In this document: piece by piece, positions 2,726 to 62,498 of the stretch | How positions within the stretch are numbered: the stretch's first letter is position 1 | How the letters are laid out: every line of letters begins with the position of its first letter | Assembly (NCBI RefSeq): GCF_035083965.1 | Contig: NC_089736.1 | Location: 10,998,207-11,062,206, forward strand | Length of the DNA stretch: 64,000 nucleotides | Direction: 5' to 3' | From: Branchiostoma lanceolatum | Taxonomy: Eukaryota > Chordata > Leptocardii > Amphioxiformes > Branchiostomatidae | The notes under the pieces: model-generated | What the model saw: only the letters and a program-made list of their open reading frames with translations | What the model was told of the DNA's origin: nothing | The model's database searches: none | Program-made: the position numbers and the translations under genes

Positions 2726-31172
<28,447 letters not shown>

Positions 31173-38042: not shown

Positions 38043-41003
38043 ATGATAATGCAAGAGCCAGTTCAGGTAAGGGTGTTTTGATGTCTAAATCGGCTGATTT
38101 TACTGTGTTCCGGTACTGTCAAGTTTCGGGCGCTTGTTTGTATTTTTCTAGCTGTCAGTGCAGAAATTTCGCTCGGACATACGAAGTTGTCTGTACAGAT
38201 ATTTTCTCTGATACTTAAACGGACTGTATCCATAGTACGTTTCCACGCGATATGTTTTATATAACCAGACCAAAGAAACGCCGATGTGTTGCGATATGTA
38301 AGAACAAAACATGCAAATTTTTTCCAGCTGTCGAAAAACGGAGGGGCCCAACTGTTGCTGCTTGTTCACACAAACTGAAACGTTTACATTTTTTAAACAT
38401 CTCGAGATCTTTGCTATCTAAGGTCTTGAACAAATCATAGGATTACAAACACGTGTAATTGTACCGAATCAAGATATTTTAGAGTATAGATAAGTACCAT
38501 TATTCATGTAACAGTCGATCTGATTGGGAACAGTAGTTTGGATACAAAGGTTAACGTTGTCATCAGCAGGCATTATTTATAAGAAGAAGAATGAGAAGTT
38601 AAACCTGAATGTTTTGAATCGGCCCTTCTTTTTCTCTTTGTAAAAAGTTTATGTTGAAACTGAAAAGGATCTAGTGGTCACAAACCAGTTTATTTAGCTC
38701 ACTCACTGAAGCGCCAGTGCCAAAGAGCTATTCTTCCACCGTTTGGGACAAAGGAGACAAAATGCTACGTTCAACATTTAAAGGTTTATTGCGCTGGAGA
38801 AATTCCCCCAGGCCTAGCTCTTTTTGACAAGTTCAATTAACAGATATAGGTCCCGCCCTAGGGACTGCGATCCTTCCCAGTAGCATGCTTGTTGGGTGAG
38901 TGACAACAGCCGGGATTTGAACTCCCAACCTTTCGATCCAGAGGCAGAGTCGCTAACTACTGGACTATACACGATACTGACACATCTTTGTTGTATCTTC
39001 TACAAGAAAAAATAGCAGAGATCACATGTTCCGTTGTTCATCATATACAAAATTGGTCTTATCACATTATATTTTCTGTACTTCAGGCGGCCATATGGCA
39101 TTCCTTGAACCACTACGCTTTTGCAGACGCCATCTTCCTCGCAGAACGATTGTACTCAGAAGGTGAGGAGCACATGATTCTCAAGTTGAAGAAAAACACA
39201 TGTACAGAGAAAAAGTGTTTTATGAAAGGGCAATGGTGAAGTGTGTTGTTCTTTATCCAGCTGTTACTAAGTGTTAGATTCTTAACTGTATAATGGTAAA
39301 TGATTTAATTGATGAATTCCAGTTTTGAATTAATCATGATGGTACCCAGTACACTATGTTTAAGGTAATCACAGAGTTGTTTGTTGTTTTGAAGTGAAAG
39401 TACAAAATAGTTTTGAGAGTGAAATATGACTGTAGATCATTGATTCTTTTTCTTACGCTGCCTGCAGTTGGTTCAGATGAAGCCTTGTTCCTGTTGGCCA
39501 CCTGCTACTACCGATCAGGGAAGCCGTACCGAACATACATGTTGCTCCAGTCCAGAGGATGCCCCACTCCCCAGTGCAAGTTTCTGTATGCAAAGTGTTG
39601 CATAGATCTGGAAAAGTGAGCCATGATATTGAACTGTCGATTTTTAGTCTTAAGCGTTGGTAAATTTGTAAGTCTGTGATCAAAACAAAAGAGATATCTA
39701 AAATAATTTTTTTGCTCGTTTCTAGTGTTTGCATGATTGACTTACCCAGTATTGCATAGATCTGGAAAAGTGAGCCATGATATTGTAAATCTTTTTTCAT
39801 CTGTTGTTTTTTAGTATTAAGTGTTGGTAAATTTGTAACTCTTTGATCAAAAGAGATATCTAAAATGTTTTTCATACTCATTTCTAATTTTGCATAATCA
39901 ATGTAACATTTTGTTTAGGTATGCAGAGGGAGAGTCTACTTTTATGGGAGGGGCGATCGGCAAGCAGCGTTCTTATGAAGAATTGGTGACGGAATTTGGA
40001 GACGCAGGATGTTTCTCCATGCAACTTCTGGGGAAGATATTTGCGTAAGACATCAGTCGTTCTTTTAGTATCCTTCTTAATGGGAACAATGTATATTGCT
40101 AAACTGTATTCGAATCAGGCTTTTAGCTAGGCATGCGTCCATGCATCATTTGGACGCATGATACTAAAATAACAAGGAAATGATTCAAATTACATCCCCC
40201 TTCAGTACTTGGTATCCTCCTGTTTACAATTGCAAACGTTTATGCATTTGAGGATGTATATGTCAAACACATTTGTACTGTTTGTCTAAGATACCTTATT
40301 GTTTCTAACCATTGCAGTAAGAGTGAAAGGAATAAGAGAGCCAGTGACTGTTACAGACAGAGCTTGAAGCACAACCCTTTCCTTTGGTCCAGCTACCAGG
40401 CTCTGTGTGACATTGGTAAGTACACATACCATAGCTTTGAGTTTGGGATTGTTGCAGTAGTGCCTCCTGCCAGCTTCCTATGTTACTACAGCGGAACCTG
40501 TATGTTTGTGTGTTTGTATTCGGGTAGCATAACTCAAGAAGCTGTGGCATGGATGGATCCTCATGAAATCTGGTAGGCGCCGGAAAAACGAAGTTTGTTG
40601 ATGGGCCCTCTAGTAGCTACCTACGGTACTGCAGCAGAACTTCAAAGTTTGAGGTCTAAACTCTAATCTACTGGAATCACTAGGATCATGATATTTGAGT
40701 GGTGTAGGTTTTGGGCCCCCTAGTGGCTTGTTTGGAACTTCAAGGGTCAATTTTGTTGCAGGCTTTGTACTAGTAAATGTATATGCTATTCTACTGATGG
40801 TTGTTATGAGGACATGTTTACAAAATGTTGTTACCATGACAACTGTTTGTTCCTCAGGAGAGAAGCCCGACCCAGACGAAGTGTTTCAGCTGACCAACCT
40901 GCAGAACTTCAGCTCTTGCCAGTCTTCCTTACCTCCCCCCGCCCTCACCCCCCAGCAGGGGGGCACCTCCGAAATCACCCCACCCCTACAGGACAGCGCT
41001 AAG
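38043..41003 (+). CDS. CDC27: CDC27 exons 1-6: N-terminal TPR dimerisation region
   Basis: Exons: 1, 38043-38066; 2, 39087-39162; 3, 39468-39615; 4, 39919-40044; 5, 40318-40415; 6, 40858-41003 (residues 1-206). Diagnostic blocks are ALFLLATCYYRSGKPYRTY, PQCKFLYAKCCIDL, YEELVTEFGDAGCFS, CYRQSLKHNPFLWSSYQALC and GEKPDPDEVFQLTNLQNFSS. This part mediates APC3 homodimerisation in the known complex. Exon 1 holds only eight codons. The exon 6 donor (GTTAGC) is weak but phase-consistent. Confidence 0.92.
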
Positions 41004-44000
41004 GTTAGCACAGTATTTTGCTGTTTCTTTTTTAAAAACAATTCGTATTGCATTTCAAATAAACAATACGTAAATGAACAAAGAGAAAAAACAAGAACTG
41101 ATACAAATGTAAAACACAGATCTGAAGATATTTACCGTTTCTTAGTATTCAAGGCAGGTCAAATTGAAGAGTAATGTTTGAGAGAAATCAAAAGGCTTTA
41201 CCTAAGTTTAAGGCCTAGGAAGAAAGCTGTGTTTCAGGTTACAAAACCAACCCTAGGAAAAAAACTGCCTTTTTTTGGGTTGATAAGGAACATAAGTTTT
41301 TCCATCTAACAGCTGAATGGTGAAAATGTTGTAGAATTGTCTTCCGACATGCTCTCCTCATATCTCTTGAAATAGAAAACTGATAGAAACAAAAACACCA
41401 TTCAGATACAAACTAGATGCCCTTTTTGTTGATACACAGCTTGTTTGTAGAAGCCCCGGGTTCGATACCGGCTGTGTCGCTCACCCGACATGCACGCTAC
41501 CAGAAAGGGTTGCAGTCCTTAGGACAAGACGTTAAGCCGTGGTCCACTGTTCATTGTGCTTGTTGAAAAGAGCTAGGGGAATTTCCCTGGTACAATGAAC
41601 CTGTAGATACTGTACATAGCGTCTGTCTTCTCTGTCACGACCAGTGGAAGATTAGAACTGGTTTGAGATCACTTTCCTTTTCCTTTCCTTACATATGTTT
41701 CAATATGTTAAATCACTACAGTTTCCATCCCTGCAGTCCCCGATGGTAAAGCTGCAGACCCCCACCCCTACCAGCTCCACGTCCGTGGGGTTGGACATGT
41801 CGACAGGATCCCCCCAGCCCCTGGTGCAGAGAGTCCGGGGGAGGGCGGGGAGGAGCCTCCTCGGAGGGCCGGCGGCCCTCAGCCCCCTCACACCCAGGTA
41901 AGGGCTGAAATAGCCATGTGAGAAAGCAGTACAACCAGGGCTTTAAATACTGGGTGCATGTGCACCTTTGTGCACCCAAAATCGCACTAATTTCTGATGT
42001 TGGGTTTACCAGTGCACCTACATGTAGATATTTTTGTACGCTATAGGGTAAAGCAAACAGAATATTCTTGAATTGTAAATTTCAGAAAAAGTAATATAAC
42101 CTTTTCTTGTACAGTACTTTATTTGATGTATTACTTGTTTGAATTTTTTAAGTTACAGTAGCTATAGAATTACAGATTGAATAGAGGCAGTAGCTTTAAA
42201 CTTTGTGATTATTTCTTGCTGACATTCAACTTTATTTTATGTGATGCACCTAAAATTCTTTCTGTGCACCTAATTTTTTGGCTGGGTGCACCTATTTCAG
42301 GAGATTAGTAAGGATTGTTGCATGTAGATTTGTTTAAAAAAAAACATGTATCAAAGCAGTTTTGATGATCTGATGAGTCACACATATGAAATTGCAGTCA
42401 GTATAACAGAAAAATTTTAAAAAAAAACGTCGCTAACATTATTTGCTTTTAAAGTTTGTAATAATGAACATGTATGCTTACACTTTGTATTTGTGACTGT
42501 TTCAGTTTTGGAGTTCTGCCTTTAGACACCCCTAGCCCAGAAGTGTTTAGCACTGGTTCCTGCACCTTTGTGACTCCCTCACCCACCACGCTAGAGTGCT
42601 CACACCTGGACACCAGGGCTCCCAGCAAGAAGGTATGTTCACCAAATATGGTCAAATCTGTTCTAGGTCTGCCAAATATGGACATTTCTGTTCTGAGTGT
42701 GCCAAATATGGGCATTTCTGTTCTAGGTGTGCCAAATATGATCATTTCTGTTCTAGGTATGCCAAATACGGGCATTTCTGTTCTGAGTGTCCCAAATATG
42801 GTCATTTCTGTTCTAGGTATGCCAAATATGGTCATATTTTCTTCTAGGTGTGCCAAATATGGTCATTCACTGTTCCAAATGTGGTCATATTCAGCTCTGT
42901 GAGGGTCACAAATTATGATATGAGTATTGTCTTGTCATGCAATGTTGTGACATAGGAACTTTCATAACAGTTTCCAGAACTCATGGAAATTCTATTAATA
43001 GTATTATGAAGAATGAAATTAAGTCTACATCCGTTTTTACTTGTTAATGAGTAATAGATTAATCATCTTTCTTATTGTTTTATCAAATAGGTTGTAACGA
43101 GAAGAAACTACCCGTCCCAGACAAAACCTGCGGTGTTCAGTCAGACAGGCAACAGTGGCAATGTCAAGGAGTCCAACACGTTAAACACGCCCAGTCCTAG
43201 TCCTAGGTTGGTAGTCTTTTTTATTTTGAATCTTCTACAATGAGTGGGTAAGCCATTTGTATCTGAGTCTTCACTCTTCTCTCAGTCTTCAGTAAAGAAT
43301 GATGTCGCTGTAGCTCAACTGGTAGCAACGTCACAGTTGAGCTCCTGGTTCCAATAAGTTGGTAACTGGGAGACAACAATTCATCCTGGGAAGGGCATCT
43401 CAGTTGGGGCTGCACCCGTTTTCCAGAAGGGACGTAAAATGGGGGTTGCGTGTTTTAAGGAGGTGCCGTAGCTCAAGTATGCTAACAACCCCTCCCTGTA
43501 AGAATATACCCTGGTACAGAAACAGTTAGGTAACTTGCTGCCCTATGTGCCACTATGCACTACAATGGTCTAAATGAACAAACAAAGTTCACTCATTATT
43601 TCTCTGTCCCTTCTCCCCCCATTTCTAGTGGTCCTCAGGTTCTTGTACAGACGACAGCCCAAGGTGTCCGCCGTAGCACTCGCCTCTTCACTGCCTCCAA
43701 CTCCGTCAAGGTCAGTCAAGGTTATTTTGCCTTACTGCGTCTCCCCTTGCTGTTAGGTCAAACTGGGAAACTGGGATTTGCAGTACCTTGTCGTGTTGCC
43801 AGGGGGCACTTTTGACTTGTGTAAGAAAATCCCAAATATCTTTCATTGTTATACAGGAAAATTATAAGAATCAAAAGTAGGATTTGCAGTACCTTATCAT
43901 GTTGCCAGGGGGCACTTCAGATTGGTAAATGAAAATACCACAACTCTTTCATTCTTATCTAGGAAAATAATAAGAAGCCAAAAACAAGATTTGCTGCTCC

Positions 44001-47000
44001 GAAAGCTCCCGCCAAGAAGACGAAGAGTCGTACAGGAAAGGGGACGTCGTCCCAGCCCACCATCACAGAGGGGTCGGAGATTATCAAACCAGAGAGCACA
44101 AGTACCACAGAGTCCAAACCCAGCCAGCTACAGGCCACATGGGCCCTCAATGTACAGAAAGCTGCTGCAGGTAAATGTTTTATTTCATTTTTTTAAAAAG
44201 TTGAGCTCCTGCATCGTGAATATTTTTGGCATAAATGAGGGGTGATAAGCACACCAAGAAGGCCAATAAGGCCAAGATATCAAAGAACAGGACTGGTAGG
44301 TACTTTATGGTGTACTGCTAAATTTATTGTCTATTGGAAAATTACAAATTGTACAAACCTGTGCAGGACAGGTGTAGTTGTCTCTGCATCCCTCGTTGTC
44401 AGGCAGACTTATGACTGTAGGGGTGGTCAGGCTTGATTACACCTACAGTCATAAGTCTGACTGACAACCGAGAGGATGCAGAAGACAATGGCACCACCTC
44501 TGGAGTTTTATTCTTCAGAAAATCTATGAAAGCTATCTGTGGTGTGTTCCAGTTTTTAAAAAGAGATCTTTCTGTTGTACAGTTGATATGTTTGGCCATT
44601 TCATCCCGTAAACGACAGTACCACAATTGTATTTTCAAATGTGTACCTTATTTCGCAGAGGGCCTTATGACATTGATGAGGGACCTAGGCCACGCCTACC
44701 TGGCGCTGAGCCACTACGACTGTCGGAAGGCGGTGTCGCTGTTCCAGCAGCTTCCTCAGCACCAGTACAACACAGGCTGGGTGCTGTCTCACATCGGCAG
44801 GGCATACTTCGAACTGGCAGAGTACCACAAGGCAAGTATGGTGAAAGTAACAGGCCTCGAAATTAACCATGTCCCGTGTCCCGAGGACAGTAGAATTTGG
44901 GTTCGGGACAATTCAACTTACCTTTCGGGACTATTTCGGGACAATCAGAAAATTCTGAGTCAGTCCCCGTCATGGAGGAACTCGATTCAGCGGAAGATTT
45001 TGCGGTAAAGATGTCCCCATTTCCATTGGAAAATGTTTATTAAATAGTTCCATCCGTAGTCAACCTGTTAAGTTGTGCCTAAAAACGCAAACAAATCAAT
45101 GAAAACTCCCGCGATTTCGGCCATTTGGCGAAGAATGGAAACAAACACCGGCCATCTTGAAATTTTTAGCGAACTATCGCTAAATCTCGCAATAACACGC
45201 GAGAACGCCACAACGTCCTCTAACGAGACTTTGTGCAACTGCAGTTTCAAATGTCGATAGAGGGCCGATATTGCCCGATAATATGATAGATTAAATCCAG
45301 CATCGTGCTTTATTCTTTCTTGGGGCGAAATTAAGTACTTCTTTGTTATTTTTGCCATATTAGAAATTTTACTAAATTAGAAAAAGGTATTGATTTCTTA
45401 AAAACTTGTATATTGTATGTTGGAATTCTTCACTGGTTTAACTTTGAGAGCTTTTGTGTTTACTACTGACTGTATATAATTTTGCATGTATTATATTTTG
45501 CATGCAAAATGTTTGCCAACATGCAATTTTGTATGTAACTGAAAAAAAAATTGTAACAAACATATGCCATGGCTTTAGTTCAGGTTCAGACTTGAATATA
45601 GGTTCTAAGCTGAACATGAACCTCTGGAACTTAATCCAGACCCCCCACTAAGTTCACATCTTTGGCCCTGGTTGGGACACTTCGGGACACTTTCGGGACA
45701 GTTGAAATCCACTTTGGGGACAATTCAGGGACAATAGGGAAAAAGTTAATTTCGAGGCCTGAGTCATTTTATCACAGCATAGGTGTCAGGTACAAAAGTC
45801 TAACTTTACATGGCCCAAGTTGTGTGGAGAGTGCCAAAGACATTGCCACAGTAAGGGTTCTGGCATCCTCCCTTTTTGAAAGACACTATTTCCTTCATTT
45901 TGAGGGACAAATTTTGTGAAGTAAAGTTTTCCCTCAGTTTTTGCTGTTAAAATGGTAATTTTTCGAACAAAACAATCATGAAGGGTCACAAGGTTCTCAC
46001 AAGAAAGAAACACTCCTACATGTATGTAGTTTGAAAGATAGCATAGGGGCCCAAATCACAGCGTAGGGGGTCAAAATGCTCAGACTATACTAACATTGAT
46101 AAATTCCCATGGAACATGAAAGGGCTCACTTCGAGTAAGGGGCATCAACTCTTTATGAACTATAACTTCCTTTGTCAGATATGTATGAATTTCTATTTCT
46201 CTCCATGCAGACACGTGTTTGAGTGTAAATTTTGTGATCCACATGTCTATATACAGGCAGAGAAGGCGTTCAAAGAGGTTCGTAAGCTTGAGCCCCACAG
46301 GGTGGAGGGGATGGAGCTGTACTCCACCGCACTGTGGCACCTACAGAAGGACGTCCTGCTGTCGTCGCTCGCACAGGAGCTCTCCGACATGGACCGCGAC
46401 TCCGCACAGGTACGCCAGGTCAAAGTTCAGGGGTGTAACCCCTGACCTATCGTCCATAGATGGTCTGTTTCCATATGTACACTTAAGGGGAGAAAAGATA
46501 GAAAAAGACCATCAATTGAATTTCTTAGATTCTGGGTTTTTTGAGTTGTAGCACAAATTTTCACCGAGCACATTCGTAGAGCATGTTAGAATATTCCTTT
46601 GGTAGTTTCCACATTCGTGATTATCACTGAAAAGAGCAAGAATCTGTAAACGAAGTTGGTAATATTTTGTTTGCCCCCCTCCCTCTTACAGTCTTGGTGT
46701 GCGGTTGGAAACTGTTTCTCCCTCCAAAGAGAACACGACACGGCCATCAAGTTCTTCCAGCGAGCCATACAGGTGGAGCCAAACTTCGCCTACGCCTACA
46801 CCCTGCTGGGCCACGAGTACGTCCTGAACGAGGAGCTCGACAAGGCCATGTCGTGTTTCAGGAACGCCATCCGGACAGACCCCAGACACTACAACGCATG
46901 GTGAGTTAGTTCCCTGTGTTATAGCATTACCTTAGGCCTTATATTAGCATTACCTTAGATGTTATAGCATAACTGAAACATATACATGGTGAGTTAGTTC

Positions 47001-50000
47001 TCTGTGTTATAGCATTACCTTAGGCCTTATATTAGCATTACCTTAGATGTTATAGCATAACTGAAACATATACATGGTGAGTTAGTTCTCTGTGTTATAG
47101 CATTACCTTAGGCCTTATATTAGCATTACCTTAGATGTCATAGCATAACTGAAACATGTACATGGTGAGTTAGTTCTCTGTGATATAGCATTACCTTAGG
47201 CCTTATAATAGCATTACCTTAGATGTTATAGCATAACAGAAACATGTACATGGTGAGTTAGTTCCCTGTGATATAGCATAAGGGAAACAGATACCCACTC
47301 ATATTGAGGGGGCACAGCCTAGTTAATTTTGGGTTTAAATTGGAGGCTGCCCACCCTCAAGTCTAGGTACCGTCTCTTCCAGGGAATTACTCTGAAGCAA
47401 AGTAACTGTGTATATGGTGAAAGGATATCCCTTCGGCTACAACCTAGTTCAAGACCATTTGTTTCTTCAGCATTTCTAATTTTGGTAAATCTGTGGGACA
47501 CAACATTATTTTCATGTTAAGAATTATACACAAAATTTTGGATTTTCGTGTAGGATAACACCGTTGAAAAAAGACTACTTTTTTGATCTGTTGTAGGTAT
47601 GGAGTTGGGATGATCTACTACAAGCAGGAGAAGTTCAGTCTGGCTGAGATCCACTTCAGGAAAGCGCTGGCCATCAACCCCTTCAGCTCTGTCCTACTCT
47701 GTCACATCGGAGTGGTGAGTCCTTTACAAACTTAAAACATCCTTTTTTTATTTACGGCTTTTTCTATTGAGAATTATTTACGGCTCAACCAACTATGGTA
47801 GACTTTGGCATCAGCCCCTTCAGCTCTGTGACGTCCTACTCTGCCACATCGGAGTGGTGAGTTCTCTATATACTCTATAAAATTATACATCCTAAAAATC
47901 CAACGTAAAAGCGTCAAGCTTCATCCTCAGTCTGAGGTTTGACCGTTAAAAATTTTGCTTGTAAACAGTACTAAATACTATTTAAGCTCTAATACCGGAT
48001 AAATTACGGAGATCATTTCCGGAAATAATCTCCATGATTTATCCCGTAGTAGGGTTTTTAGAAATTGTATATTAGTATTGTTTTCCTGGATGTATAACCT
48101 TCATCAGTGTTACTTACAGTAGTACATTTTTGTTGCAGGTCCAACATGCCCTCCAGAAGTCAGACAGTGCCCTCCAGACCCTGAACAAGGCCATCACAGC
48201 CGACCCAAAGAACCCCCTCTGTAAATTCCACAAGGCCTCCATCCTCTTTGCTACAGAAAGATACAAGGTACATGTACAACAACACTTCATCCTTCAACTG
48301 TAGTGGAAGGCACATTCAGCTTAACAAAAGTTTGTTTTTCACACACACATGCAGGAAAGTAGCCTAATATTGCTTTACGAAGCATTGGCTTTCTATGTGC
48401 AATTTTTTGGTGCTACTACGTGTATGCCATGGTTTTCAGTACAAACCATAAACTTTTGCAAATTGAAGGTAAGAGAAAATTTTGCTGACTTGCCATTCTG
48501 TTTCTATTTCAGGATGCATTGAAAGAACTGGAAGAGTTGAAACAAATTGTACCTAAGGAATCCTTAGTATACTTCCTTATGGGCAAGGTAAGGCTACAAA
48601 ATTTCTATATTTGAGTTCATCACAGATAATGTGAAAGGGAGGGCAAAATAGGTGCCTAAGCACCTTATTCAATATCTTATGATATTGAATGATATTCAGT
48701 GGTGGCTATCTCATGTTTGGTAGCCTTAAGTTTGGTTAACATTGAACTAGAATTTGCCAGCACCACAGTTTTTTTATTCACATTGAGCAAAAGGGTTTTT
48801 GCTTGCAGTACTGAAAATAGTCTCTAGGTGGCACATCACACCTGTACAACATAGAGTTTTGGGATAAAACCTGGTTCTCCAGATCTTCCCTTTAGTCACT
48901 GACAAAAGACAGCGGATGCTGTCTGAAATGTCTGACCGTTTCAAAAGTTTATCCAGTTGCTTGAGTAACTGTCATTTGGCATATCTTTTTACCTGGATGT
49001 AAAACCTTCATCAATGTTGGAGGGGGAATGTATAGCAGACAAGTGCCAGTGGTGACATGAAAAGAAGAAAAAAAATATCCCACTGAATGACTTAAAACCT
49101 AAAGACTTTTGTTGTCACACCACCAGGTGTACAAGAAGCTAGGTCAGACCCACCTTGCTCTGATGAATTTCTCCTGGGCAATGGACCTGGATCCGAAGGG
49201 TGCCAACAACCAAATAAAGGAGGCGATAGACAAGAGGTACCTACCTGAAGATGATGACACAATGGACACAGAGGATGATATCACTCCAGACGATGCCGGT
49301 AGGTTTGTGAGTTACAAGATTCAGGGGTGGAGAGGGGGTGGAGCAGTTCATGAATTGTCATAAAAGCCTGTCTCTGATATGAATTGCAACCATGGGTTGT
49401 CATTTAAGAGAATGTACCTATCTAAAAGACTGTTAGACACAACAGTGGTGTCATGTTAGGTTAGGGTGTTTGGCCTGGGTATTTCAATCCCCTGACATGC
49501 CACCGATGTTGTGCCCTTAGGAAAGGCACTTAACACGACTTTCCTCACTCCACTCAGGTGTAAAAATGAGTACCTGACTTCGGTTGGGGGGTTAAAAGAA
49601 GGTGGAAGGAGAGGGTTTGGCTCCGCCTTCCAATACCATGCCCTAGACACAGTGGATAACAACCCACTGCCCCTACGGCCTCAAAAAGGCCATGTGACTA
49701 CCTTAACCTACCTTTTACCTTAGACAAAATATCATCTAAAAGAACAACGGCTGTGTGGGCTACTTTTCAAATAGGAAGAGATGCATTTGTCAGTTGATAT
49801 TACTAGTTCATTGCCTCAGTTTAGCTCCTTGTTCTGCTCATAAGTTACAACTGATTTTGTCCACTTTTCCAGGGGAGGATTCAGTAACAATCATGGACGA
49901 GCAGCCGTTAAACCTGGACTAATTCTGTCCACTTTTCCAGGGGAAGATTCAGTAACAATCATGGACGAGCAGCCGTTAGACCTGGACTAATTCTGTCCAC

Positions 50001-50222
50001 TTTTCCAGGGGAAGATTCAGTAACAATCATGGACAAGCAGCCTTTAGACCTGGACTAATTCTGTCCACTTTTCCAGGGGAAGATTCAGTAACAATCATGG
50101 ATGAGCAGCCGTTAGACCTGGACCTACAGGGGGAGGGGAGTCCGGGGGAGGTGGACACGAGTAACGAGGTGGACGCGGAAGACGTCCAACTACACGCCAT
50201 GGAGAGCGACGAGAGCTTGTAG
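38043..50222 (+). CDS. CDC27: CDC27 / APC3, TPR subunit of the anaphase-promoting complex; 19 exons, complete
   Basis: CDC27 is a scaffold subunit of the APC/C ubiquitin ligase in the nucleus. Its TPR superhelix binds the C-terminal Ile-Arg tails of CDC20/CDH1 coactivators and APC10, and so helps trigger destruction of cyclin B and securin. Nineteen coding exons with consistent phases total 2487 nt and 828 residues (human about 824-830). Sequence blocks match the family from the start (MQEPVQ|AAIWHSLNHYAFADAIFLAERLY) through the conserved linker phrase GRSLLGGPAALSPLTP to the C-terminal TPRs. Either of two ATGs (38043 or 38049) could start translation. The intron after exon 12 has a GC donor. 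Exon 14 and exon 19 have tandem-repeated splice sites. Exon lists are in the part entries. Confidence 0.96.
38690..38975 (-). repeat. SINE-like repeat, family C, minus strand, in CDC27 intron 1
   Basis: On the minus strand it reads 'gtatagtccagtagttagcg', then 'ggttgggagttcaaatccc', then 'gctgttgtcactcaccc', matching the family C copy at 26905-27290 with divergence in the 3' half. Confidence 0.65.
41450..41690 (+). repeat. SINE-like repeat, family C, 5' truncated
   Basis: Starts at the box-B region ('gttcgataccggctgtgtcg') and continues 'aggacaagacgttaagccgt', 'tctgtcttctctgtcacgac'. It lies in CDC27 intron 6, ending close to exon 7. Confidence 0.65.
41737..44170 (+). CDS. CDC27: CDC27 exons 7-11: low-complexity regulatory linker
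   Basis: Exons: 7, 41737-41897; 8, 42506-42632; 9, 43091-43206; 10, 43629-43710; 11, 43963-44170 (residues 207-437). The region is rich in Ser, Thr, Pro and Lys with many Ser/Thr-Pro pairs (TPTPT, SPLTP, TPSPE, TPSPSP), as in the phosphoregulated loop of vertebrate CDC27. The invariant phrase GRSLLGGPAALSPLTP then SFGVLPLDTPSP bridges exons 7 and 8. Exon 10 has GVRRSTRLFTASNSVK, equal to the family's RRSSRLFT motif. Phosphorylation of this loop promotes coactivator loading in vertebrates; extension to this species is inference. Confidence 0.9.
41938..42303 (+). repeat. Dispersed 'ggtgcac' repeat, inverted partner of 28208-28534
   Basis: Begins 'gggctttaaatactgggtgc' and ends 'tgggtgcacctatttcagg'. 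It is similar in layout and termini to the copy in CPS intron 1, on the opposite strand. It lies in CDC27 intron 7. Confidence 0.6.
42640..42870. repeat. 30-bp minisatellite next to CDC27 exon 8
   Basis: About seven copies of a 30-bp unit of the form 'tgccaaatatggtcatttct' plus 'gttctaggtg' begin 8 bp after the exon 8 donor. The period is a multiple of three, so it is open in several frames on both strands. It looks zinc-finger-like (YGHFCSECAK) by accident. Confidence 0.9.
43310..43555 (+). repeat. tRNA-derived SINE-like repeat, family B
   Basis: Head TGTAGCTCAACTGGTAGCAA resembles box A. 'cagttgagctcctggttcca', 'ttggggctgcacccgttttc' and 'cctccctgtaagaatatacc' match the copies at 19736 and 58808. 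It lies in CDC27 intron 9. Confidence 0.7.
44384..44481. repeat. Near-perfect hairpin element, about 98 bp
   Basis: The left arm CTGCATCCCTCGTTGTCAGG and following 'cagacttatgactgtag' mirrors the right arm 'ctacagtcataagtctgac' and 'gacaaccgagaggatgcag' around a short loop. It lies in CDC27 intron 11. Confidence 0.8.
44659..49298 (+). CDS. CDC27: CDC27 exons 12-18: C-terminal TPR superhelix
   Basis: Exons: 12, 44659-44831; 13, 46257-46409; 14, 46692-46900; 15, 47597-47714; 16, 48139-48267; 17, 48513-48587; 18, 49127-49298 (residues 438-780). The blocks are the consecutive TPRs: GWVLSHIGRAYFELAEYHKA, GMELYSTALWHLQKDV, WCAVGNCFSLQREHDTAIKF, AYAYTLLGHEYVLNEELDKA, YGVGMIYYKQEKFSLAEIHF, SVLLCHIGVVQHALQKSD, NPLCKFHKASILFATERYK and YKKLGQTHLALMNFSWAMD. 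These form the Ile-Arg-tail binding groove. The exon 12 donor is GCAAGT, not GT. The exon 14 donor is repeated in tandem downstream. Confidence 0.94.
44851..45761. mobile_element. Inverted-repeat element, about 911 bp, close to the CDC27 exon 12 donor
   Basis: The left end CAGGCCTCGAAATTAAC and right end GTTAATTTCGAGGCCTG are perfect inverted repeats. Both subterminal regions are crowded with GGGACA/TTCGGGACA motifs (for example 44911-44945 and 45675-45735), as expected of transposase-binding repeats. No transposase frame is visible. Flanks AGTAA and AGTCA could be a degenerate 5-bp target duplication. It begins 19 nt after the exon boundary. Confidence 0.75.
46901..47275. repeat. 88-bp tandem array carrying copies of the CDC27 exon 14 donor
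   Basis: The donor GTGAGTTAGTT, preceded by CATG, occurs at 46901, 46989, 47077, 47165 and 47253, exactly 88 bp apart. Between them the unit contains 'agcattaccttaggccttat' and 'ttagatgttatagcataact'. Units differ by only a few substitutions. The first copy is the true exon 14 end. Confidence 0.92.
47807..47862 (+). pseudogene. Partial duplicate of CDC27 exon 15 3' end and donor
   Basis: 'catcagccccttcagctctg' through 'cacatcggagtggtgagt' repeats the true end of exon 15 (47665-47720) about 142 bp downstream. A 5-nt insertion (gacgt) breaks the frame. It has a donor but no acceptor. Confidence 0.8.
48890..49025. repeat. Fragment of the 188-bp inverted-repeat family
   Basis: 'agtcactgacaaaagacagc', 'gtctgaaatgtctgacc' and 'gcttgagtaactgtcatttg' match the right half of the element at 6838-7025. 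It lies in CDC27 intron 17. Confidence 0.5.
49440..49730 (+). repeat. SINE-like repeat, family A
   Basis: Carries GTGCCCTTAGGAAAGGCACT, 'ttcctcactccactcaggtg' and a 3' half with 'cactgcccctacggcctcaa'. It lies in CDC27 intron 18. Confidence 0.6.
49858..50076 (+). repeat. CDC27: 68-bp tandem array of the CDC27 last-exon acceptor and exon start
   Basis: The phrase TGTCCACTTTTCCAG then GGGAAGATTCAGTAACAATC repeats so that exon-start positions fall at 49873, 49941, 50009 and 50077, exactly 68 bp apart. The first three copies read into an in-frame TAA after about 16 codons. Only the fourth continues to the long C-terminus. Confidence 0.93.
50077..50222 (+). CDS. CDC27: CDC27 exon 19: terminal exon
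   Basis: Read from the fourth acceptor, the exon encodes GEDSVTIMDEQPLDLD, then LQGEGSPGEVDTSNEVDAED, and ends VQLHAMESDESL before TAG (50220-50222). The ending resembles the family's acidic tail (human ends QLHAAESDEF). This supports the fourth copy as the ancestral exon. Use of copies 1-3 would give a protein about 32 residues shorter. Confidence 0.85.
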
Positions 50223-50286: not shown

Positions 50287-50292
50287 AATAAA
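50287..50292 (+). terminator. Polyadenylation signal of CDC27
   Basis: AATAAA lies 65 bp after the CDC27 stop, inside 'gttgacaataaagagagatc'. A T-rich stretch follows. Confidence 0.6.
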
Positions 50293-51118
50293 GAGAGATC
50301 TTTTGTTGTTCCTAAGTCGTGTGATTTTTCGAAGTGGTAGCCATACCTGGGGCTCTATCAATGGAGAAGTAGAGACAAGTTTTTTTTTCACTCTTGGAGA
50401 AGTTCTAAAACTAGCTTCTCCATGATAAGGCCATACAACTTACAGTTTTGATTGTTTGGTTATCATTTTTGTCATCTTTTTTTGAGCAGGACAAAGCAAC
50501 ACCCACCTACATGTATTATGTACACAGATATTGAACAATTCTAAAGCAGTACTTTTCCTTTGCCCAAGTCACTCACATTACAGTATGCACATGTGCCTAG
50601 AACAGTAAACAGTAGTGTACCTTTTATTACTTGTTGCTGCAAGTTTTTCTGAGGAAATTTTACAAAAAACCGAGTGTAGTCCTTTAACTCTTGTTCATTA
50701 GTATGCTTGTGTATGATAGTAAACATTTCTGTTAGAATTATGAGGTAGGCAATTGCATTTTCTTCATAGGAAAAATGGAGGCTGTATTTGGGGTTTTCCG
50801 TGGTAGATGGTACTCAGATGTAACAATAGCATTCTTAAGTTGAATTATTATAACTGAATTATTTAATACAAGTTTGAGACATTGGAGTTTTCTGTATGTA
50901 TGATAAAAATGCTTCAGGAATACGTTTTGTGATGAGTATATCAAGTATAGTAATTATTCATGCATGGAATGAATGTACATGACTATGTATGACAATTAAG
51001 ACACTGGTGCCAACTTTGTAGTGACTACCTAAGTCAGATTTTTGTGTAGAATTCTGTATCATATGGATAAAGTTGTGGTGCATTTGGTGAATACCAATCA
51101 GTTGTTTCTTTAAATAGG

Positions 51119-51640
51119 CCATGTTGATTTGATTATATGGATGACATCTTATGGAAACCTCAAGACTGATGCGAGCGTGCGGAAAAAAAAAGTTTGGCAA
51201 AAAAGTTGCTGTCATAATGAAAACTATGTGGTCAGGAAGGTTGAACATATGACTAAACCAAGTATGGTATACCAAATGATAGATTCTTCATTTTTGTTCT
51301 TTCACATCTTCTTTTAGCCTGGGTGCCATCCTAGATTACTCCTGCATTCGCTACCCTAAAAAAAATCTGTTTTTTTTAGGGTAGTGAATGCAGGAGCTCC
51401 GGTATTAATCTAGGATGGCACCCAGGCTAATCTTCTTTGACTTTGGAATTGACTTTGGCATATTACAACATACAATGTGGGTATCTGTTTTCCAATATTT
51501 CTTTACAATTTAAGGCACATATTTCCTTGTATTGCCGCTGCTTTGTACGATTCACATTATGGTCGAAAACTTTCTTCATCTTATTTGGAAACGGGACGAA
51601 AATTGATGCGCTCGCTGGTATCATCCATATAATCAGATAA
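51119..51640. mobile_element. Inverted-repeat element with nested hairpin
   Basis: The left 'gattatatggatgacatc' and right 'tcatccatataatcaga' are inverted, and 'gatgcgagcg'/'cgctcgc' motifs pair inside them. The left end resembles the left end of the element at 29578 ('atggatgacatctt' in both). The hairpin at 51315-51430 sits within it. Confidence 0.55.
51315..51430. mobile_element. Foldback hairpin element, about 116 bp
   Basis: The left arm TAGCCTGGGTGCCATCCTAG is mirrored by 'ctaggatggcacccaggcta'. The inner arms 'tgcattcgctaccctaaaaa' and 'ttttagggtagtgaatgca' also pair. A nearly full-length palindrome with no coding capacity. Confidence 0.85.
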
Positions 51641-52984
51641 TATATTAATTAAAAAGAGTTGGAAAATCCTCACAGAGATATACTTTGCCTCATGTTTTCC
51701 ACCTCACTGCCGTTTTTGGCGATGCCTCTGGAAGTAGCCACATTGCGAATACATGTCTGTCTACGTGGACTGACGCCAGTGCCTGTACCCCAGACCCTGA
51801 TGGTAGCACATGCCTTACAGTGAGAAAACAATGGCCAAAATGACTGTCAGCTTACATTTTACCTTAGATATAATAACTTTATTGCACAACAATTGTACAA
51901 GGTACAAAGTATGGCATACATTGCTGATCCGCCATGTACTTCAACGTCATTACATTACTTATAATGTGTGATTCTGTGTTCTTAGAGTTTCATGTTGGAC
52001 AAGCAAAAAAGTACCATATGGAACAAAACATCTAAAGTCTAAAATACTTTACTTTGGTGTCTTATTTGATCTTTACATCTCAAGATATAGAGCTACAGTG
52101 GTACTGTCTTAAGCCAGAGAAAGAAAAACAGAAGTAGCAATTTTAACCATTCAGACATGTTGGTCCAGTTCTAACCGCTCTTTAAAATTCAGTGACATCA
52201 TGGAATCCTGTGCACATTTCTAGGATGTGCACAGAAGTTGATGATGTCATATGCCAAGAGCCAGGATGTTTTGATGGGAAATGCTCTTTTTTTAAACGAA
52301 GAAAATTCCTTTACTTGAAAGTCCCCAAAATCATTTTTCTTTCATTTTTCTGAAGGTTCCGTCACCTCTAGTTCAACAAGAAATTATATCATAGCTGTAG
52401 AATAAACTTTTTTGTTTTTAGATTTTTTCCTAAGTCAACAATTGCTCATTTTGTAAACTTTAAGGTGATTAATGTACATACATTGAGATCAATATGTTGT
52501 ACAGAGAACCATATGTGCTAAACATGTATAACAGGGACATAATATAAGAGTATTTGTATGTCATAGCTCTAATATTTTACAATTCAAACATGACATACAA
52601 CCGAAATAAGATCAACACTTTTTGTATTTCATGCAACTATTAAGCAATCGGACAATGACTAATTTGTCGAAATTCATGGTGGTATTTTTTGTCAGAAAAT
52701 GTGGTATTATATATATGTATGTGAGAAGTGTTCTTTCAGTCTTAGTTTGTAATGATGTATTTTTCTTTTGTAAGATCTGTGTTGTGTGGTAAAATGTATA
52801 ACGGAAAGTAACAAGTTGTTGAACCATTAATGAAAGAGAAACTGAATTATCGAAGAAACTTCCAATCTTTTGTTTCCCAGCGTTCTTTGTGTGCCAATTG
52901 TTGGGAGTATTTCTTACCAACCGTTCTTCTTTTCTTTCCTATGTTATTTTATAATTATTATCTCAGAAATAAAAGGAATAATAC

Positions 52985-53330
52985 AGAGCAATTTTGTACT
53001 GTGTTAAGTATGGCATGCAAGTGTTGCATAACATGTCAGGTCAATCAGAATGTTGTGTGGGTTTCAAAAGCAATTTTGAGGCAGTTTTGTACTGTGTTAC
53101 AATGTAAGTATGGCATGCAAGTGGTACATAACATGTCAGGTCAATCAGAATGTTGTGTGGGTTTCAAAAGCAGTTTGAGGCAGTTTTGTACTGTGTTACA
53201 ATGTAAGTATGGCATGCAAGTTGTACACAACATGTCAGGTCAATCAGAATATTGTGTGGGTTTCAAAAGCAGTTTGAGGCAGTTTTGTACTGTGTTCAGT
53301 ATGGCATGCAAGTGGTACATAATACCACAA
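52985..53330. repeat. 99-bp minisatellite
   Basis: 'ggcagttttgtactgtgtta' through 'gtgggtttcaaaagcagttt' recurs with repeat points at 53081, 53180 and 53279, and a shorter first unit from 52988. A stray partial unit is at 53535-53585. Period divisible by three keeps a frame open. Confidence 0.85.
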
Positions 53331-53376
53331 ATATTGGTACATAATACGGCATAACAGATACATACAAATATTCCCC

Positions 53377-53452
53377 AGTGGAATGCCCTGCCTGGCACGG
53401 TTGTGATGGCTCTCACCGTTGAGTCATACCGTGCCAGGCTGGAGGCCTGCCC
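53377..53452. repeat. Short hairpin
   Basis: 'gcctggcacggttgtgatgg' pairs with 'cgttgagtcataccgtgcca' and 'ggctgg', giving a stem centred near 53413. Confidence 0.6.
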
Positions 53453-54234
53453 GCCTTAGCCTGGGACCTCCCCCCCCCCCCTACTTTTCCCCTCGCTGGG
53501 TTATCTGGTGGTAGTTGAAGTCATACTATAATATGCCAGCTCAAACAGAATGTTGTGTGGGTTTCAAAAGCAGTTTTGAGGCATATCTTCTGCTTGCCTG
53601 TCTTGTGGTTTGATATGATTATCAGGGTTCTATGTATCAACAACCAATGAAACGATAAATGTCTCAGAAAAAGTAAGAGGGGGGGGGGATTTAAATCGCT
53701 GGGGGGTTGTCTGCAAAAATACAGAGGGATATAAGATTCAGATACTTCGTTTGGAGTGCTTGCAAACTGTTAGCAAGCTTTAATAGTCGCATGTTTTGAA
53801 CCTCATGGAACGGCCTTACATACTAGTATTGATAATCGATAAAGGTTCTTCTGTGGCGTGAATCAGTGTAGTAAGTTAGAGAGCCATGGAAAAATCGTGA
53901 TCTTCTTTAAATCCTTATTGTAATCAACAGATCATGTCTACAATTTAAAGGCCCTAGCGACTGCGCTCTCATTTCAGTTGGCTCCATTACCACACACGTC
54001 TTACTATTCACTCTAGATCTGTTTTGGAACAATTTTCGCCTTTCGTGAGTTACCAGGGAGTCAAGCCGACTGTGAGTTCAACTCAGCGAGGCAGATTGAA
54101 TTCCAATGTTCGGCTTGACTCCCAAGCCAAATTATTCTGGCCTCCTTCGCAGACTTCTTGTTTGTAGGGACGGCGTTCATTTGGGGGAGCACTGCTTCGC
54201 GACTTTCAACATTTCTCCACGCCAAGAAGTCTGC

Positions 54235-54560
54235 TATATGTCGGCGTCTTGAAAGAGTCTGCTGTAGACTATACGTTGAAAACAGCATTAAGAGAGTCTG
54301 CTATACACTATACGTTGAAAACAGCATCGAGAGAGTCTGCTATAGACTACTGTATACGTTGAAAACGGCCCTGATAAAGTCTGCTGTAGATTATATGTTG
54401 AAACAGCATTAAGAGAGTCTGTTGTTAACTACTAGTATACGTTGAAAACAGCCCTGAGAGAGTCTGCTGTAAACTACAAGTTGAAAACGCCCCTGAGAGA
54501 GTCTGCTGTAAACTACAAGTTGAAAACGCCCCTGACGGAGTCTGCTGTAGACTATACCAT
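54235..54560. repeat. 39-bp minisatellite
   Basis: About eight units of the form 'gagagtctgctgtagactat' then 'acgttgaaaacagcatta'. Unit length is 39 bp with some longer variants. Both strands stay open over the array, producing spurious frames. Confidence 0.85.
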
Positions 54561-55787
54561 CCCGTGTGACTGTCATATGACAGGCCTTGGGGCTGTACGC
54601 TATTGTGTGAAGCCAGCAGGGCGTACAGGACTAGAATCCGTGTCACTCAACTGTTTGTATAAACAACGGGACTACTACACAGTCAAGGATACTGTCCTTA
54701 GCTCTTCCATCTAACGTTTCATGTACTTGCAGGTTGGTTTCACTGGCAGCTAGGCAAACCTGGGTTTTATCTGAGCTCCGTCCGTCAATATTGACCATGG
54801 TAGAATCCTATTAGATTTAACGGGAGAAAAACAGCTACCTGTTCGTACATTTCTACTTATTCATTAAATTTTGGTTTAGACATAAATCGCATCTTCAGAT
54901 GTAAGTCAGAAGTTTGTAGTGTAAAGGGGAGTCGTTGTTTTTCTGGACATAGATTCTCACCATTCTTCATATGAAAATGCTACTCATCCCAGCGCTGCTA
55001 AAAGGCTGCGAAGGAGGCAACTAAATTTTGCATTTTTCTATGGCCGTGTTAGTCGTTTGACAGAAGGAGAAATTCGTAAAAAAAGTGAGGTCGTGCTAAA
55101 ACGTTCCGGGAGTGTGTATGGTATATCCCAAGAAATATGGTATTTCCCTTAATGCTCTATTGACTCCAGACAATTAAAGTAACCGAGAGTGGCAGTCATA
55201 TGACATGCACGGGACGCCTCGAGCTACAGAAAACTAGTCTTCATTTGGGCTCCAGGGGTCTCACTTAGATAAAACCATTCATTACTAAGTTATCCTCAAA
55301 TTCCCAATCTTTAAGGAGTGGGAAAAGTTAGATTTGGTCAATATCTGGCGACCCTCGAACTTTGTAAGACTACTGGAAGTACCTCACGATACCACATTGT
55401 GTTACAGACTACTTAAGTTGTGGTTTTCAGTAGTCTGAAGACCGTCTGACGATTTCTTCGTTTGATCCTTGCCGATGTCCATCTCAGTCGAGCCAAATTT
55501 CGGGACAATTTTTTTGCCGATTTTACACTAGAATCATTTGCTGAAGTAAAATCAGAATTAGAATTGTTTGCTTAAGTAAAACCTTTTCATCGGTGTCAAC
55601 TTTGACGTCAAGTGTTTTTATACAGAATCGGAGATTCTAGTTTACAGCTACCCATGGAAAATAGTAGACTCTCCCTTGGTCATTTTAGTGCCCCGCCCCC
55701 TCTTAATTAAAAAGAGTCACGAGGGAACTCCATTATCACACTCTGGGTAAGCAAGGAGGTTGGAAAAGTGATTCTGTCGGAGAAGTT

Positions 55788-58700
55788 ATGCCGAAGATGT
55801 TTCTAGTGGTTTTCTGTTCGCTCCTCCTCGGCACATGTTACGGGCAGTTCCCTCGAGCCTGTACGGACGACCTGAGCCTCTCCACCGGCAGGTGTTGCCC
55901 CCTGTGGCCGGCGTCAGACGGGACGGGGTCGCCTTGCGGTGAGGCTCTCGGCCGTGGCACCTGCCGTCAGATTCAGCTGGACGACTCTCCCCACAGCCCC
56001 AGCTATCCCTACGTGGGGGCGGACGACCGGGAACGATGGCCGACTGTGTACTGGAACTGGACTTGCGAATGTCGAGGCAACTTCTACGGCGTCGACTGCA
56101 GTGAGTGTAAGTACGGCTATGTGGGACCCGACTGTAACGAACGAAAGATCTTAATCCGTCGGAACATCTTCGACCTGTCGTGGTGGGACAGAACCCGATT
56201 TCTGCGAGCGCTCGACGAGAGCAAAACCACCGTGAGCGAGCGTTGGGTCATCCCCGTGACACCTTACGTTGACGTCCTCGCAAACGGAACCAAACCGGCC
56301 TTCGCTAACGTCACGACGTATAACGTGTTAGCCTGGATGCACTACTACGTCTCCAGAAACGTTCTCCTTCCCGACGGAGGCGTGTTTGAAAACATAGACT
56401 TCGCACACGAGGGCCCGGGCTTCTTACCTTGGCATCGCGTTTTCTTACTACTGTGGGAACGAGAGCTGGCCAGATTCGTGGAAGACGAGGATTTCACCAT
56501 TCCCTACTGGGACTGGAGGGACCTGGACGAGTGTGGTGAGTTGGAATGTCGTTATGTGTGTAAATTTTTCCCAAGAAATAGAAGAATCTATATGTAAATC
56601 CAGGCACAGCCCTTATCCCGCGATAGCACTTTATTCACTCACAGCAACAACGTTTAACGACTCTTTGATACACAAGAAAACAGTTACTCAAGCAACTGCA
56701 AGGATTTGGAAATGTTCCGTTTCGAAGATCTTTCGTGTTTGTTGAGTAACTGTTTTCTCTCGTATCTTATCACCTTGATGTCCAATCATCATCTAAACTC
56801 TTAACTGATAAGGAAAATTCATTTTTAATTACCTTTGTCTGTCTGACTAGATAATTGTTCTGATTAAAGCTGTCGGCTAAGGTTTGCGCAGTTAACATAA
56901 CAATGACTAGTAGGTAACACACCAAGACACAACGGAAGTCATGCCTCACAGCAAAACAGGTGTTAAACACAGAGAATGAGCCGGATCCTTACATCTGCTT
57001 GGAGATTTGTCTTACGTATATACTGTTTAGATTAAAGCTAAAGGTATGGAAATTCGAAGATTAGTTACTCGATTTCGCCACCCCTTTACGTGTTCAAATT
57101 ACACTGTAATTTACAGATGATGTAATGAGAAGATTTCTCGAAGTTCCCATCGGTAAAAAAACATTTCTTTCCAAATGTTTCTTTACATTTTTCTAGATAT
57201 CAGTACGATATAGCATTGCATATTGTGTAGCCTCCACCAGGCCTTCATAGACCAAGTGAATAGTTGGCCAGGAGAGTCAGTCAGCGGACTTCTCACGGTC
57301 ACAGCATTGAAGCGCTTCCTGCGGAAGGTTTGAGTACTGCAGCACTAAAATAGCGTCCTGTTTTTCAGGCGATGTCTGCACGGACGACTTCCTGGGGGCA
57401 ACATTTCAGGGCTTCAGCGGGAGACTCAGCAACGGGTCGGTGTTCTCCGACTGGCAGGTATGTTTGTTGGTGCACTACATTACAATCATTGATTAGCCAA
57501 TGCAAATACAAGGAGCAGATACATGCTTATAAGACCGAAGTCGAAAAAAACACACCTTCAAAGCATTGAAGTGTTTTTTGACTTCATTTGGCGCTGCCTG
57601 TATCTATATTTCCATATGCCGTGAGGCCGTGAGTCTTCAAAAAATCACCACCTCTTTCACTCCAGAATAACTATGACGATCCAGAAGAGTTAGGACAATA
57701 TATTAGACTTTTACTGCAAAGCTCCTGCATGGAAGGCAAAATGACCATCCTTTTTGCCATCTTATTTCTGGGTTTTCAAGTAGCGTTGCAGAAAGACCAC
57801 CAAATGAACTTATCTTAACTTTGAAATGACAGTTACTTTTATCTGTCTAAAACTTGAGTAGAGGTATAACGCAAACTCCAGCTGTCCGGGGGTTTCTGTC
57901 CCCTCCCCGCGGGCGGCTATGCGGTTACAGGGCGGCGAGCCGTCACAGGAGCTTGATTGAATTCAGGCTAGAGTAGAGGCGTTTGTGTACGTTTTTTCAC
58001 CACCTATCTACCATGTTAACATTGATACGTGCACGGCCACCCAGGTCATCTGTACGCGGGATGACGAGTATGACGAACTCCGGACAGTTTGTGACGGCAG
58101 TCCGGAAGGACCGCTTCTCCGGAATCCCGGAACCGTTCCGGACTACTCCACCCTTCCGAGATGGCAGGACGTCCAGGACGTCTTGAAACTGGACCAGTAC
58201 GAACCGCCCCCTTACGACAGGTCGGCGAACTTCAGCTTCAGAAACACACTGGAAGGATTCGCTGCACCAGACGGTTTGTCATGTTTTTGGTTTGATTTGT
58301 TCGTTTGTTTGTATGGGTGGATGGTTGTATGTTTGGTTGGTGGTCGGTCGGTTTGTACCGTGTATGCCTGACATCTGGCGACTTTTATAGGTACTGCAAG
58401 CGTCCGGAGTTACCTGCACAACGCTGTCCATCGCTTCATGAACGGGACTCTCAGCTCGGTCGGGTCTTCAGCGAACGATCCCCTGTTCATCATTCACCAC
58501 GCCTACGTGGACAGTATCTATGAAGTCTGGCTCCGGAAATTCAGGTACGGGTTTAGTCACGAGTCACTAGTTACAGGGATAGTACGGTGGCCCACAGGAA
58601 CAGCGCTATTTTTTCTATCTTGGTTTATTTTTTTGTTTTCAGACTTAGGTTTCTTGTATCCTCCATCCCGGAGTATAACTTATTTTTCTTGACGCTATAC

Positions 58701-60165
58701 TGTGAAGTATTTTACAACGTTGGACTTAAGTATACATTTCTACTTCTTCATTGAAGTTTTTCATATGTGGTATTTCAAATTCTTTGTGTGTCCTTGTGTT
58801 TTGTCTCTATAGCTCAACTGGTGGCAGCCTCACAGTTGAGCTCCAGGTGCCATTTAATTTAGTTGGTAACTGAGAGACCCCGGTTCGAATTCGGTGAAGG
58901 GCATCCTGGTTAAAGATGCATACGTCGACTTTCGGGGCCCGTGTTCGAAGAGGTGCCTCGAGCACGTTAGAATATAATGCACTACAACATCCTCACTACT
59001 CGGATGGGTACCTACTGGCTGTACTTCAGATTAATGATCCTAAAAATAACTTGTGTCCTTCCACAGACCGAACGTCAGCGCTCTGACGGCAGAAAACGCA
59101 CCGATTGGTCATAACAGGGGGTCATTCATGGTGCCGTTCGTACCCCTCCACAAATCCGCAGACTTCTTCGCTCTAGCGGCGGACTTCGGGTATGACTACG
59201 ACTACCTGATTGAGACCGGTGAGTGCACGCACATGTTGTTTTTTTTGCTCTCCAAGTAGAGGAGGGGTTCCGGCAGGTTTTTGACGTGTTTTTAGGCGTT
59301 TTTGTCGGGCTTTCCACTTTGTCATTTTTTTGTCTACATAAACCAAAGGTTAGAGCCAAAAAAAATGAAAACCCGACAAAAACGCCTAATAATACGTCAA
59401 AAACCTGCCGGAATCCATCCTCTGCTTGGAGAACATCGAATCTTTTTTCTTCTTCCATATGGGAGTTTGCATTTTCAGTAGCTCTGCGTTATACCTGTAC
59501 TTCTGAGTTATTTCTTGAACTATTGAAATTTTTGAGGGGTCGATGTTTTGAAGAACAGCAGCCTAACGTTTCATGCCATTGTCCTTTTTAATGAAAGAAA
59601 AATGTGCTTTTCACAAAAGTAATACACAAAGAGAACAGAGAAAGAATACAAGGGCGTTAACTGATGATGATACAAACATAATCACGGATCAAAAGGCAAA
59701 CTATAAAGACTACGATATAAAATACAGAAAAAGGTGGAAGCAAAATTTGAACTACAACGTAACTATACATGTACTTTGAAATCTATTGCCAAATGAGCTT
59801 GGCAGTCTCTTAAAGAGACTGAACTGCACATATTGTAAGTAACATCTATTACATGAAATAATGTTGTTGTCTTTTGCACCCCTCTAGAATTGGCCTGGTG
59901 GGAGGACCTGGGCTTCCTGAAGTTCTACGGGCTGCTGGTAGGGGGCATGATGATGGGTGTGTTGTTGCTGGTCCTTACCGTGACCACCAGCCGGCGGTAC
60001 TGCTGCCCGGCGCGGCAGATATACCGGCCCAGGATCCGCCGGATCGTTCGGGTCCCTACCGAGTACGACCCGACAGAGACCGAGGAGTCCAGCGGAGAGA
60101 CCGAAACAACTCCGCTTATCAACAAACAGGAACCGGAGCCAAGATATGCCGTAGTGTATTTGTAG
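55788..60165 (+). CDS. TYR: Tyrosinase (monophenol monooxygenase), TYR type; 6 exons, complete
   Basis: Type 3 copper enzyme that oxidises tyrosine to DOPA and dopaquinone, the first step of melanin synthesis, in melanosomes. Exons: 55788-56535, 57369-57457, 58045-58273, 58391-58544, 59067-59218, 59888-60165 (1650 nt, 549 residues; human 529). A signal peptide (1-19) is followed by FPRAC and an EGF-like cysteine-rich block. CuA ligands are His185 (WMHYYVSR), His207 and His216 ([12 protein letters not shown]). CuB ligands are His365, His369 (LHNAVH) and His392 ([11 protein letters not shown]). The double His at 391-392 and [11 protein letters not shown] fit TYR, not TYRP1/DCT. Exon 6 has a membrane span (about [20 protein letters not shown]) and a cytoplasmic ETTPLI, a [DE]xxxL[LI] sorting motif. 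The exon 3 donor GTTTGT is weak but in phase. Confidence 0.95.
56680..56800. repeat. Fragment of the 188-bp inverted-repeat family in TYR intron 1
   Basis: 'cagttactcaagcaactgca' and 'gttgagtaactgttttctc' flank a short interior and pair with each other. 'ccttgatgtccaatcatcat' follows, as in the copies at 13230 and 49000. Confidence 0.5.
58808..58995 (+). repeat. tRNA-derived SINE-like repeat, family B, in TYR intron 4
   Basis: Box-A-like TAGCTCAACTGGTGGCAG and box-B-like GGTTCGAATTC are both readable. The end 'gtgcctcgagcacgttagaa' matches the 3' region of other family B copies. Confidence 0.7.
59248..59433. mobile_element. Inverted-repeat element, about 186 bp, in TYR intron 5
   Basis: 'ctctccaagtagaggagggg' with 'ttccggcaggtttttgacg' at the left pairs with 'cgtcaaaaacctgccggaa' and 'ctctgcttggagaa' at the right. 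The inner 'aggcgtttttgtcgggct' also pairs. Apparent frames on both strands result from the palindrome. Confidence 0.8.
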
Positions 60166-61888: not shown

Positions 61889-61991
61889 ATGGTTAAAGCC
61901 ACGATGCTAGCCGTGTTGGCGGTTCTTCTGTGGAACTCGGACATCGTCATGTCAATCTGCAGTATGACTAACCCCTGCAAAAACTTCACAG
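61889..61991 (+). CDS. Probable first coding exon of a secreted or type I membrane protein (partial)
   Basis: ATG (61889) opens MVKATMLAVLAVLLWNSDIV, then MSICSMTNPCKNFTG, and meets a strong GTAAGA donor at 61992 in phase 1. The first ~24 residues look like a signal peptide (basic start, Leu/Val/Ala core). The cysteine pattern C-x5-C followed by a phase 1 donor is typical of a split EGF-like module. No following exon could be identified to the window end, so the family is unknown. A chance frame cannot be excluded. Confidence 0.45.
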
Positions 61992-62251
61992 GTAAGAATA
62001 TTCTCACATTTCGTCCGACGATAACTGTACGGAAGGACATTGAGGGTATTCTTGACACCATCGCGAATGCGTTATGATATAATTCAGATGTCGTGTGACG
62101 ACAAAAATTGCCGTAGACTGACCACGCCAGCTATATGGAGAATATTTGAGGAGAGTTTGGCCGCCATAGGGTTTCATTAGCAGACACAGGGGGAAATGTT
62201 AACCCTCCTGGCCAATCATTGTCCAATTCTACGACCCACACCCCAAAGGAA

Positions 62252-62349: not shown

Positions 62350-62498
62350 ACTAACTTATCGGTGCTGTCACAGTTTCGCCGTGACTCCGACGACCAATAT
62401 TAAACATACGTACGATGAATATGACTGGGTTCTTAGGACGAGTTTGAGGTTTTGTTGATTCGTTAAAAATTTAGTAGATATATATATACAAGCTTGGT

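Follow-up and report, generated by a model that had tools for sequence, protein, structure and literature searches.

The window, i.e., the whole stretch of 64,000 nucleotides of Branchiostoma lanceolatum DNA analysed here, carries CDC27 (APC3) on its plus strand and CPS1 on its minus strand. The identity of CDC27, already proposed in the initial annotation, is supported by homology over the full length of the protein, including the TPR region and the conserved tail. A model of 19 coding exons was built with the human protein sequence as a guide, and the top database match of its product was CDC27 of B. floridae (P0001, 828 aa) with 97% identity (807 of 828 residues); all others among the matches listed (best 120 of 670) were at 58% identity or below. 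In a comparison with the PDB the end of the joined protein matched human APC3 (E 1.1e-26, residues 1–61 of 105), and its final residues gave a weak match to the human tail, DADDTQLHAAESDE against DAEDVQLHAMESDE (7.5 bits). Among the best 120 of 670 homologues, a vertebrate-rich list ranked by score, 105 have ESDE within their last 25 residues, and the other 15, inspected by eye, are made up of 13 with a variant of ESDE and two without it (P0094 and P0115). The gene also contains a likely GC-AG intron (AAG/GCAAGT, 44831, plus strand; the slash marks the junction here and below).

The four-copy array at the last acceptor of CDC27

The gene and the features found at its 3' end are the following:

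38043..50222 (+): CDC27/APC3, 19 coding exons, 828 aa when read through copy 4 (gene model, identity to B. floridae)
49127..49298 (+): penultimate exon, donor CCG/GTAGGT (CDC27 gene model)
49858..49925 (+): copy 1, AG at 49871-49872, exon start 49873, in-frame TAA inside CTAAT
49926..49993 (+): copy 2, decoy acceptor, exon start 49941, in-frame TAA
49994..50061 (+): copy 3, a decoy like copy 2, with exon start 50009 and TAA in frame
50062..50222 (+): copy 4 and the real terminal coding exon (start 50077), with the conserved acidic tail up to the stop
50287..50292 (+): AATAAA, presumed poly(A) signal for the terminal exon

The four tandem copies of 68 bp that had been described at this acceptor were confirmed by TRF (period 68 bp, 49850-50123, 4.0 copies, 95% matches, score 499) together with an in-register comparison, in which the copies start at 49858, 49926, 49994 and 50062 and the array covers 49858-50129. 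A chance origin of the array is ruled out by the 95% matches across the four copies. Taking copy 3 as reference (68 positions), there are four mismatches in copy 1, two in copy 2 and eight in copy 4, five of these last located within the final six bases, where the copy passes into the real exon. Private substitutions are present in copies 1, 3 and 4. The unit spans the exon-intron boundary, with the 3' end of intron 18 followed by some 47 nt of terminal-exon sequence. All four copies share the acceptor sequence TGTCCACTTTTCCAG/GGG and all four acceptors retain the polypyrimidine tract, the AG and a yUnAy motif whose A lies 19 nt upstream of the exon start. The exon starts and reading frames given in the initial annotation were correct, and the complete 19-exon model reproduced its two protein lengths, 796 aa by way of copy 1, 2 or 3 and 828 aa by way of copy 4; a transcript that keeps the last intron would encode 801 aa.

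The tail that is lost through copies 1–3 is found from starfish to vertebrates among the matches listed. The C-terminus of B. floridae CDC27 corresponds to the tail reached only via copy 4, with two substitutions located beyond the duplicated segment. Within this segment the translations of copies 2 and 4 are identical to B. floridae, and there is one replacement each in copy 1 (D to N) and copy 3 (E to K). As an indication of relaxed coding constraint in the decoys this pattern is weak, two changes being too few for a test and copy 2 having no such change.

For copy 1 the motif at 19 nt is CTGAT, with CTCAT at 33 nt as a second branch-point candidate, and for copies 2–4 it is CTAAT. The CTAAT found at the ends of copies 1–3 falls in the reading frame and provides the TAA stop; the CTGAT of the original flank would likewise give an in-frame stop (TGA). 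All three copy junctions read TAATTCTG and the corresponding flank reads TGATTTTG, which suits a single first duplication with multiplication taking place later. In this first event coding sequence with the end CCTGGAC would have become joined to that part of the same intron which contains the branch point, and the 68-bp unit would then have been amplified to four, probably by unequal exchange. It is the duplication junction that would have placed CTAAT in the exon frame, so that copies 1–3 stop at TAA. The overlap of branch point and stop illustrates how the duplication of a junction can import a stop codon into the frame of a decoy.

Other junction duplications in CDC27 and CPS1

Direct repeats were sought by comparing every intron, extended by 80 nt of adjoining exon, with itself. 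In CDC27 they were present in six of the 18 introns and spanned a splice junction in five, at the donors of introns 3, 14 and 15 and the acceptors of introns 10 and 18. Beyond what the initial annotation described there are thus four more junction-spanning duplications in this gene, and the phenomenon already has a name, “mirage”. The additional arrays of CDC27, followed by two of CPS1, are:

39594..39898 (+): donor mirage, intron 3, two copies, decoy donor after 39769
42642..42883 (+): 30-bp array in intron 8, starting at the 10th intron base, which abuts the donor (exon end 42632) and does not span it
43768..43994 (+): acceptor mirage, intron 10, two 106-bp copies, decoy exon start 43857
46897..47279 (+): donor mirage, intron 14, five copies of ATG/GTGAGT, the first productive, exon end 46900
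47672..47874 (+): donor mirage, intron 15, two copies, decoy donor after 47856
12532-12987 (-): CPS1 donor mirage, intron 20, duplicate with 79 nt of exon, the decoy keeps GT
5744-6028 (-): CPS1 acceptor mirage, intron 31, two decoys with AG kept

The five donors of intron 14 are identical and spaced by 88 bp, and the full-length protein is obtained only from the first.

These additional duplications also bear on whether the terminal array is an error of the assembly, i.e., a collapsed or expanded repeat with a true copy number different from four. There is a precedent, since one published amphioxus mirage was apparently assembled aberrantly in a genome draft, according to the legend of Additional file 4 of PMC3087553. 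However, copies 1, 3 and 4 are set apart by their private substitutions and the four other duplications in CDC27 have different units, and we consider such an error highly improbable. In any case, other individuals may differ in the number of copies.

For CPS1 we used a model of 36 exons whose junctions were picked to fit the B. lanceolatum CPS1 record, to which it is identical at 1504 of 1507 residues; the identity to B. floridae was 1389 of 1445 aligned residues. Direct repeats were found in eight of the 35 introns and three were flagged as spanning a junction, those of introns 20 and 31 listed above and that of intron 24, which was counted although its copies have no GT. The 1507-aa structure of the model is shared by the B. 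lanceolatum record, which thus agrees with use of the exon-proximal site in introns 20 and 31; the records of both species may come from gene prediction and not from sequenced cDNA. A likely GC-AG intron is present in CPS1 as well (GAG/GCAAGT, 11002, minus strand). Pfam domains were searched in the six frames of bases 1 to ~30000 and in two forward frames of 50301-64000. A reverse-transcriptase domain (PF00078, 15411-16157, plus strand) lies in the 2.9-kb intron 18 of CPS1, on the strand opposite to that gene, and downstream of CDC27 there is a tyrosinase domain (PF00264) in two pieces (56316-56525 and 58279-58536, plus strand), with tandem arrays at 53005-53322 and 54250-54557 located between CDC27 and these pieces. 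One frame of the right flank scanned against the PDB gave no match.

Direct repeats in CDC27 reach across a junction in five of the six introns that contain them, which could suggest that some process targets splice junctions, for example through breaks at exon boundaries. This is a claim about origin, compatible with the reading of the array preferred below. We set the arrays, with extents entered by hand from the intron self-comparison, at random within their own introns plus 80 nt on each side. The observed number of junction-spanning cases was 5/6 against 3.2/6 expected in CDC27 (P = 0.11) and 3/8 against 3.0/8 in CPS1 (P = 0.65), and the enrichment over both genes was not significant (8/14 against 6.2/14, P = 0.21), even with the GT-less case of CPS1 intron 24 counted among the eight. 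Targeting is thus unsupported by random placement and we regard it as quite unlikely; neither targeting nor avoidance of junctions is evident for the arrays of CDC27 and CPS1.

Decoy strength and the choice of acceptor

In total the five junction mirages of CDC27 contain ten decoys, with a strength similar to that of the productive sites. Scored with a home-made matrix of 52 acceptors (the one of intron 18 excluded) and 53 donors from CDC27 and CPS1, into which most of the authentic sites scored had also gone, decoy and authentic donors were equal in introns 14 (9.80, five sites), 3 (5.31, two sites) and 15 (8.99, two sites), the acceptors of intron 10 gave 9.24 for the decoy and 9.60 for the productive site, and those of intron 18 gave 13.43 for copy 1 and 12.71 for copies 2–4; ranked among the 52 acceptors, 46, 43, 43 and 43 score below copies 1, 2, 3 and 4, respectively. 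With any of the ten decoys the protein is cut short, at 83, 375, 616 (four decoys), 661 or 796 (three decoys) residues, and an even choice among sites would leave one transcript in 160 at full length by our computation. Mitosis requires CDC27, and in a working gene the decoys must therefore be at a disadvantage.

In the gene model the productive copy is the first one at donors and the last one at acceptors, i.e., the one that gives the shortest exon in all five CDC27 mirages. Exon definition would predict this pattern, and a choice of the shortest intron would predict the opposite. A rule by which the shortest exon wins would cover the five cases, on the donor and on the acceptor side alike. 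The array is very probably an ordinary mirage of the last CDC27 3' splice site, bypassed through the exon-proximal acceptor. Splicing would most likely take place at copy 4, the nearest to the body of the exon, with copies 1–3 remaining intronic and a normal protein of 828 aa as the outcome. One of the two readings offered in the initial annotation, a duplication that the spliceosome must ignore, is favoured by the truncation that all decoys cause, and by the mirages of Adh3, the globins and TnC, which are reported to leave regular splicing undisturbed, as is inferred for PGBD5 (PMC3087553, PMC3902484). The idea that scanning from the donor could favour copy 1 does not quite fit the array, since each copy has its own branch-point candidate and the choice would then be a matter of which branch point is used. 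Two points speak against the bypass of copy 1: its acceptor scores slightly higher than those of copies 2–4, and in classical test genes with duplicated acceptors it was reportedly the copy closer to the donor that was preferred (Reed and Maniatis, 1986).

The other reading was a switch between C-terminal isoforms, in which copies 1–3 would be used in part of the transcripts and yield a tail-less CDC27 of 796 aa, perhaps depending on the copy number of the allele. All four acceptors are strong and have their yUnAy motif at the same distance of 19 nt, and truncation to 796 aa is mild compared with the 83–661 aa that result from the other CDC27 decoys. Besides, no more than 32 C-terminal residues are missing from this form and the terminal exon contains its stop, so that the mRNA need not decay and partial use of copies 1–3 might be tolerated. 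Against this stand the reportedly undisturbed splicing of the Adh3, globin and TnC mirages and the conservation of the lost tail from starfish to vertebrates. Also, P0001 was the sole amphioxus-like cluster among the best 120 of 670 matches, with no separate truncated form, although clustering at 90% could conceal one among its 16 members. We consider the switch rather unlikely, and a regulated one is possible but unsupported.

Bypass of the decoys remains the preferred reading. The near-identical acceptors, with position as almost their sole difference, make CDC27 a good test bed for exon versus intron definition in amphioxus, and for whether the length of a minisatellite alters a cell-cycle protein between individuals. 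At its most far-reaching, the ten matched decoys of CDC27 would amount to a natural experiment on exon versus intron definition in which leakage at the last acceptor produces a tail-less APC3, its share set by the copy number of the allele; we think this improbable.

Comparison with known duplicated splice sites

In NAGNAG and longer-range alternative 3' splice sites several AGs vie for one donor. The CDC27 array resembles these tandem acceptors in having multiple AGs per donor. However, its competitors are near-identical duplicates of 68 bp, each with a branch-point candidate, and scanning for the AG alone would not be decisive. No literature was found on a tandem acceptor in CDC27.

In the model of Rogers, as cited in PMC3087553, introns are gained through tandem duplication of segments containing AG/GT. 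The raw material, duplicated junction segments, is the same as in the CDC27 array. In contrast, CDC27 has no new intron and its unit, judged by eye, contains no good donor and would provide only extra acceptors.

The closest relatives are the mirages described in amphioxus, on the 5' or the 3' side, in Adh3 (units of 10–72 bp), the globins BflGb6 and BflGb9 (150–160 bp), TnC and PGBD5 (60 and 108 bp) (PMC3087553, PMC3902484). Copies with AG/GT could act as cryptic splice sites and haplotypes of BflGb6 have six or three units (PMC3087553), and the Adh3 mirage is somatically unstable (PMC3087553, PMC3902484). The two BflGb6 haplotypes offer a precedent for the copy-number polymorphism that the initial annotation considered possible. 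The titles and abstracts of the literature on amphioxus minisatellites, mirages and splice-site repeats contained none in CDC27. The known cases share with the CDC27 array the genus, the boundary-spanning tandem units and the AG or GT kept in many copies. The differences are that CDC27 has five mirages in one gene, that the stop of the array decoys overlaps the branch-point motif, and that splicing was verified by others in several of the known cases, whereas the use of copy 4 in CDC27 is a prediction. With units that span a boundary, splice signals that are kept and a cephalochordate gene as host, the array is by its structure a further case of the known mirage minisatellites of amphioxus, in an unusually rich gene.
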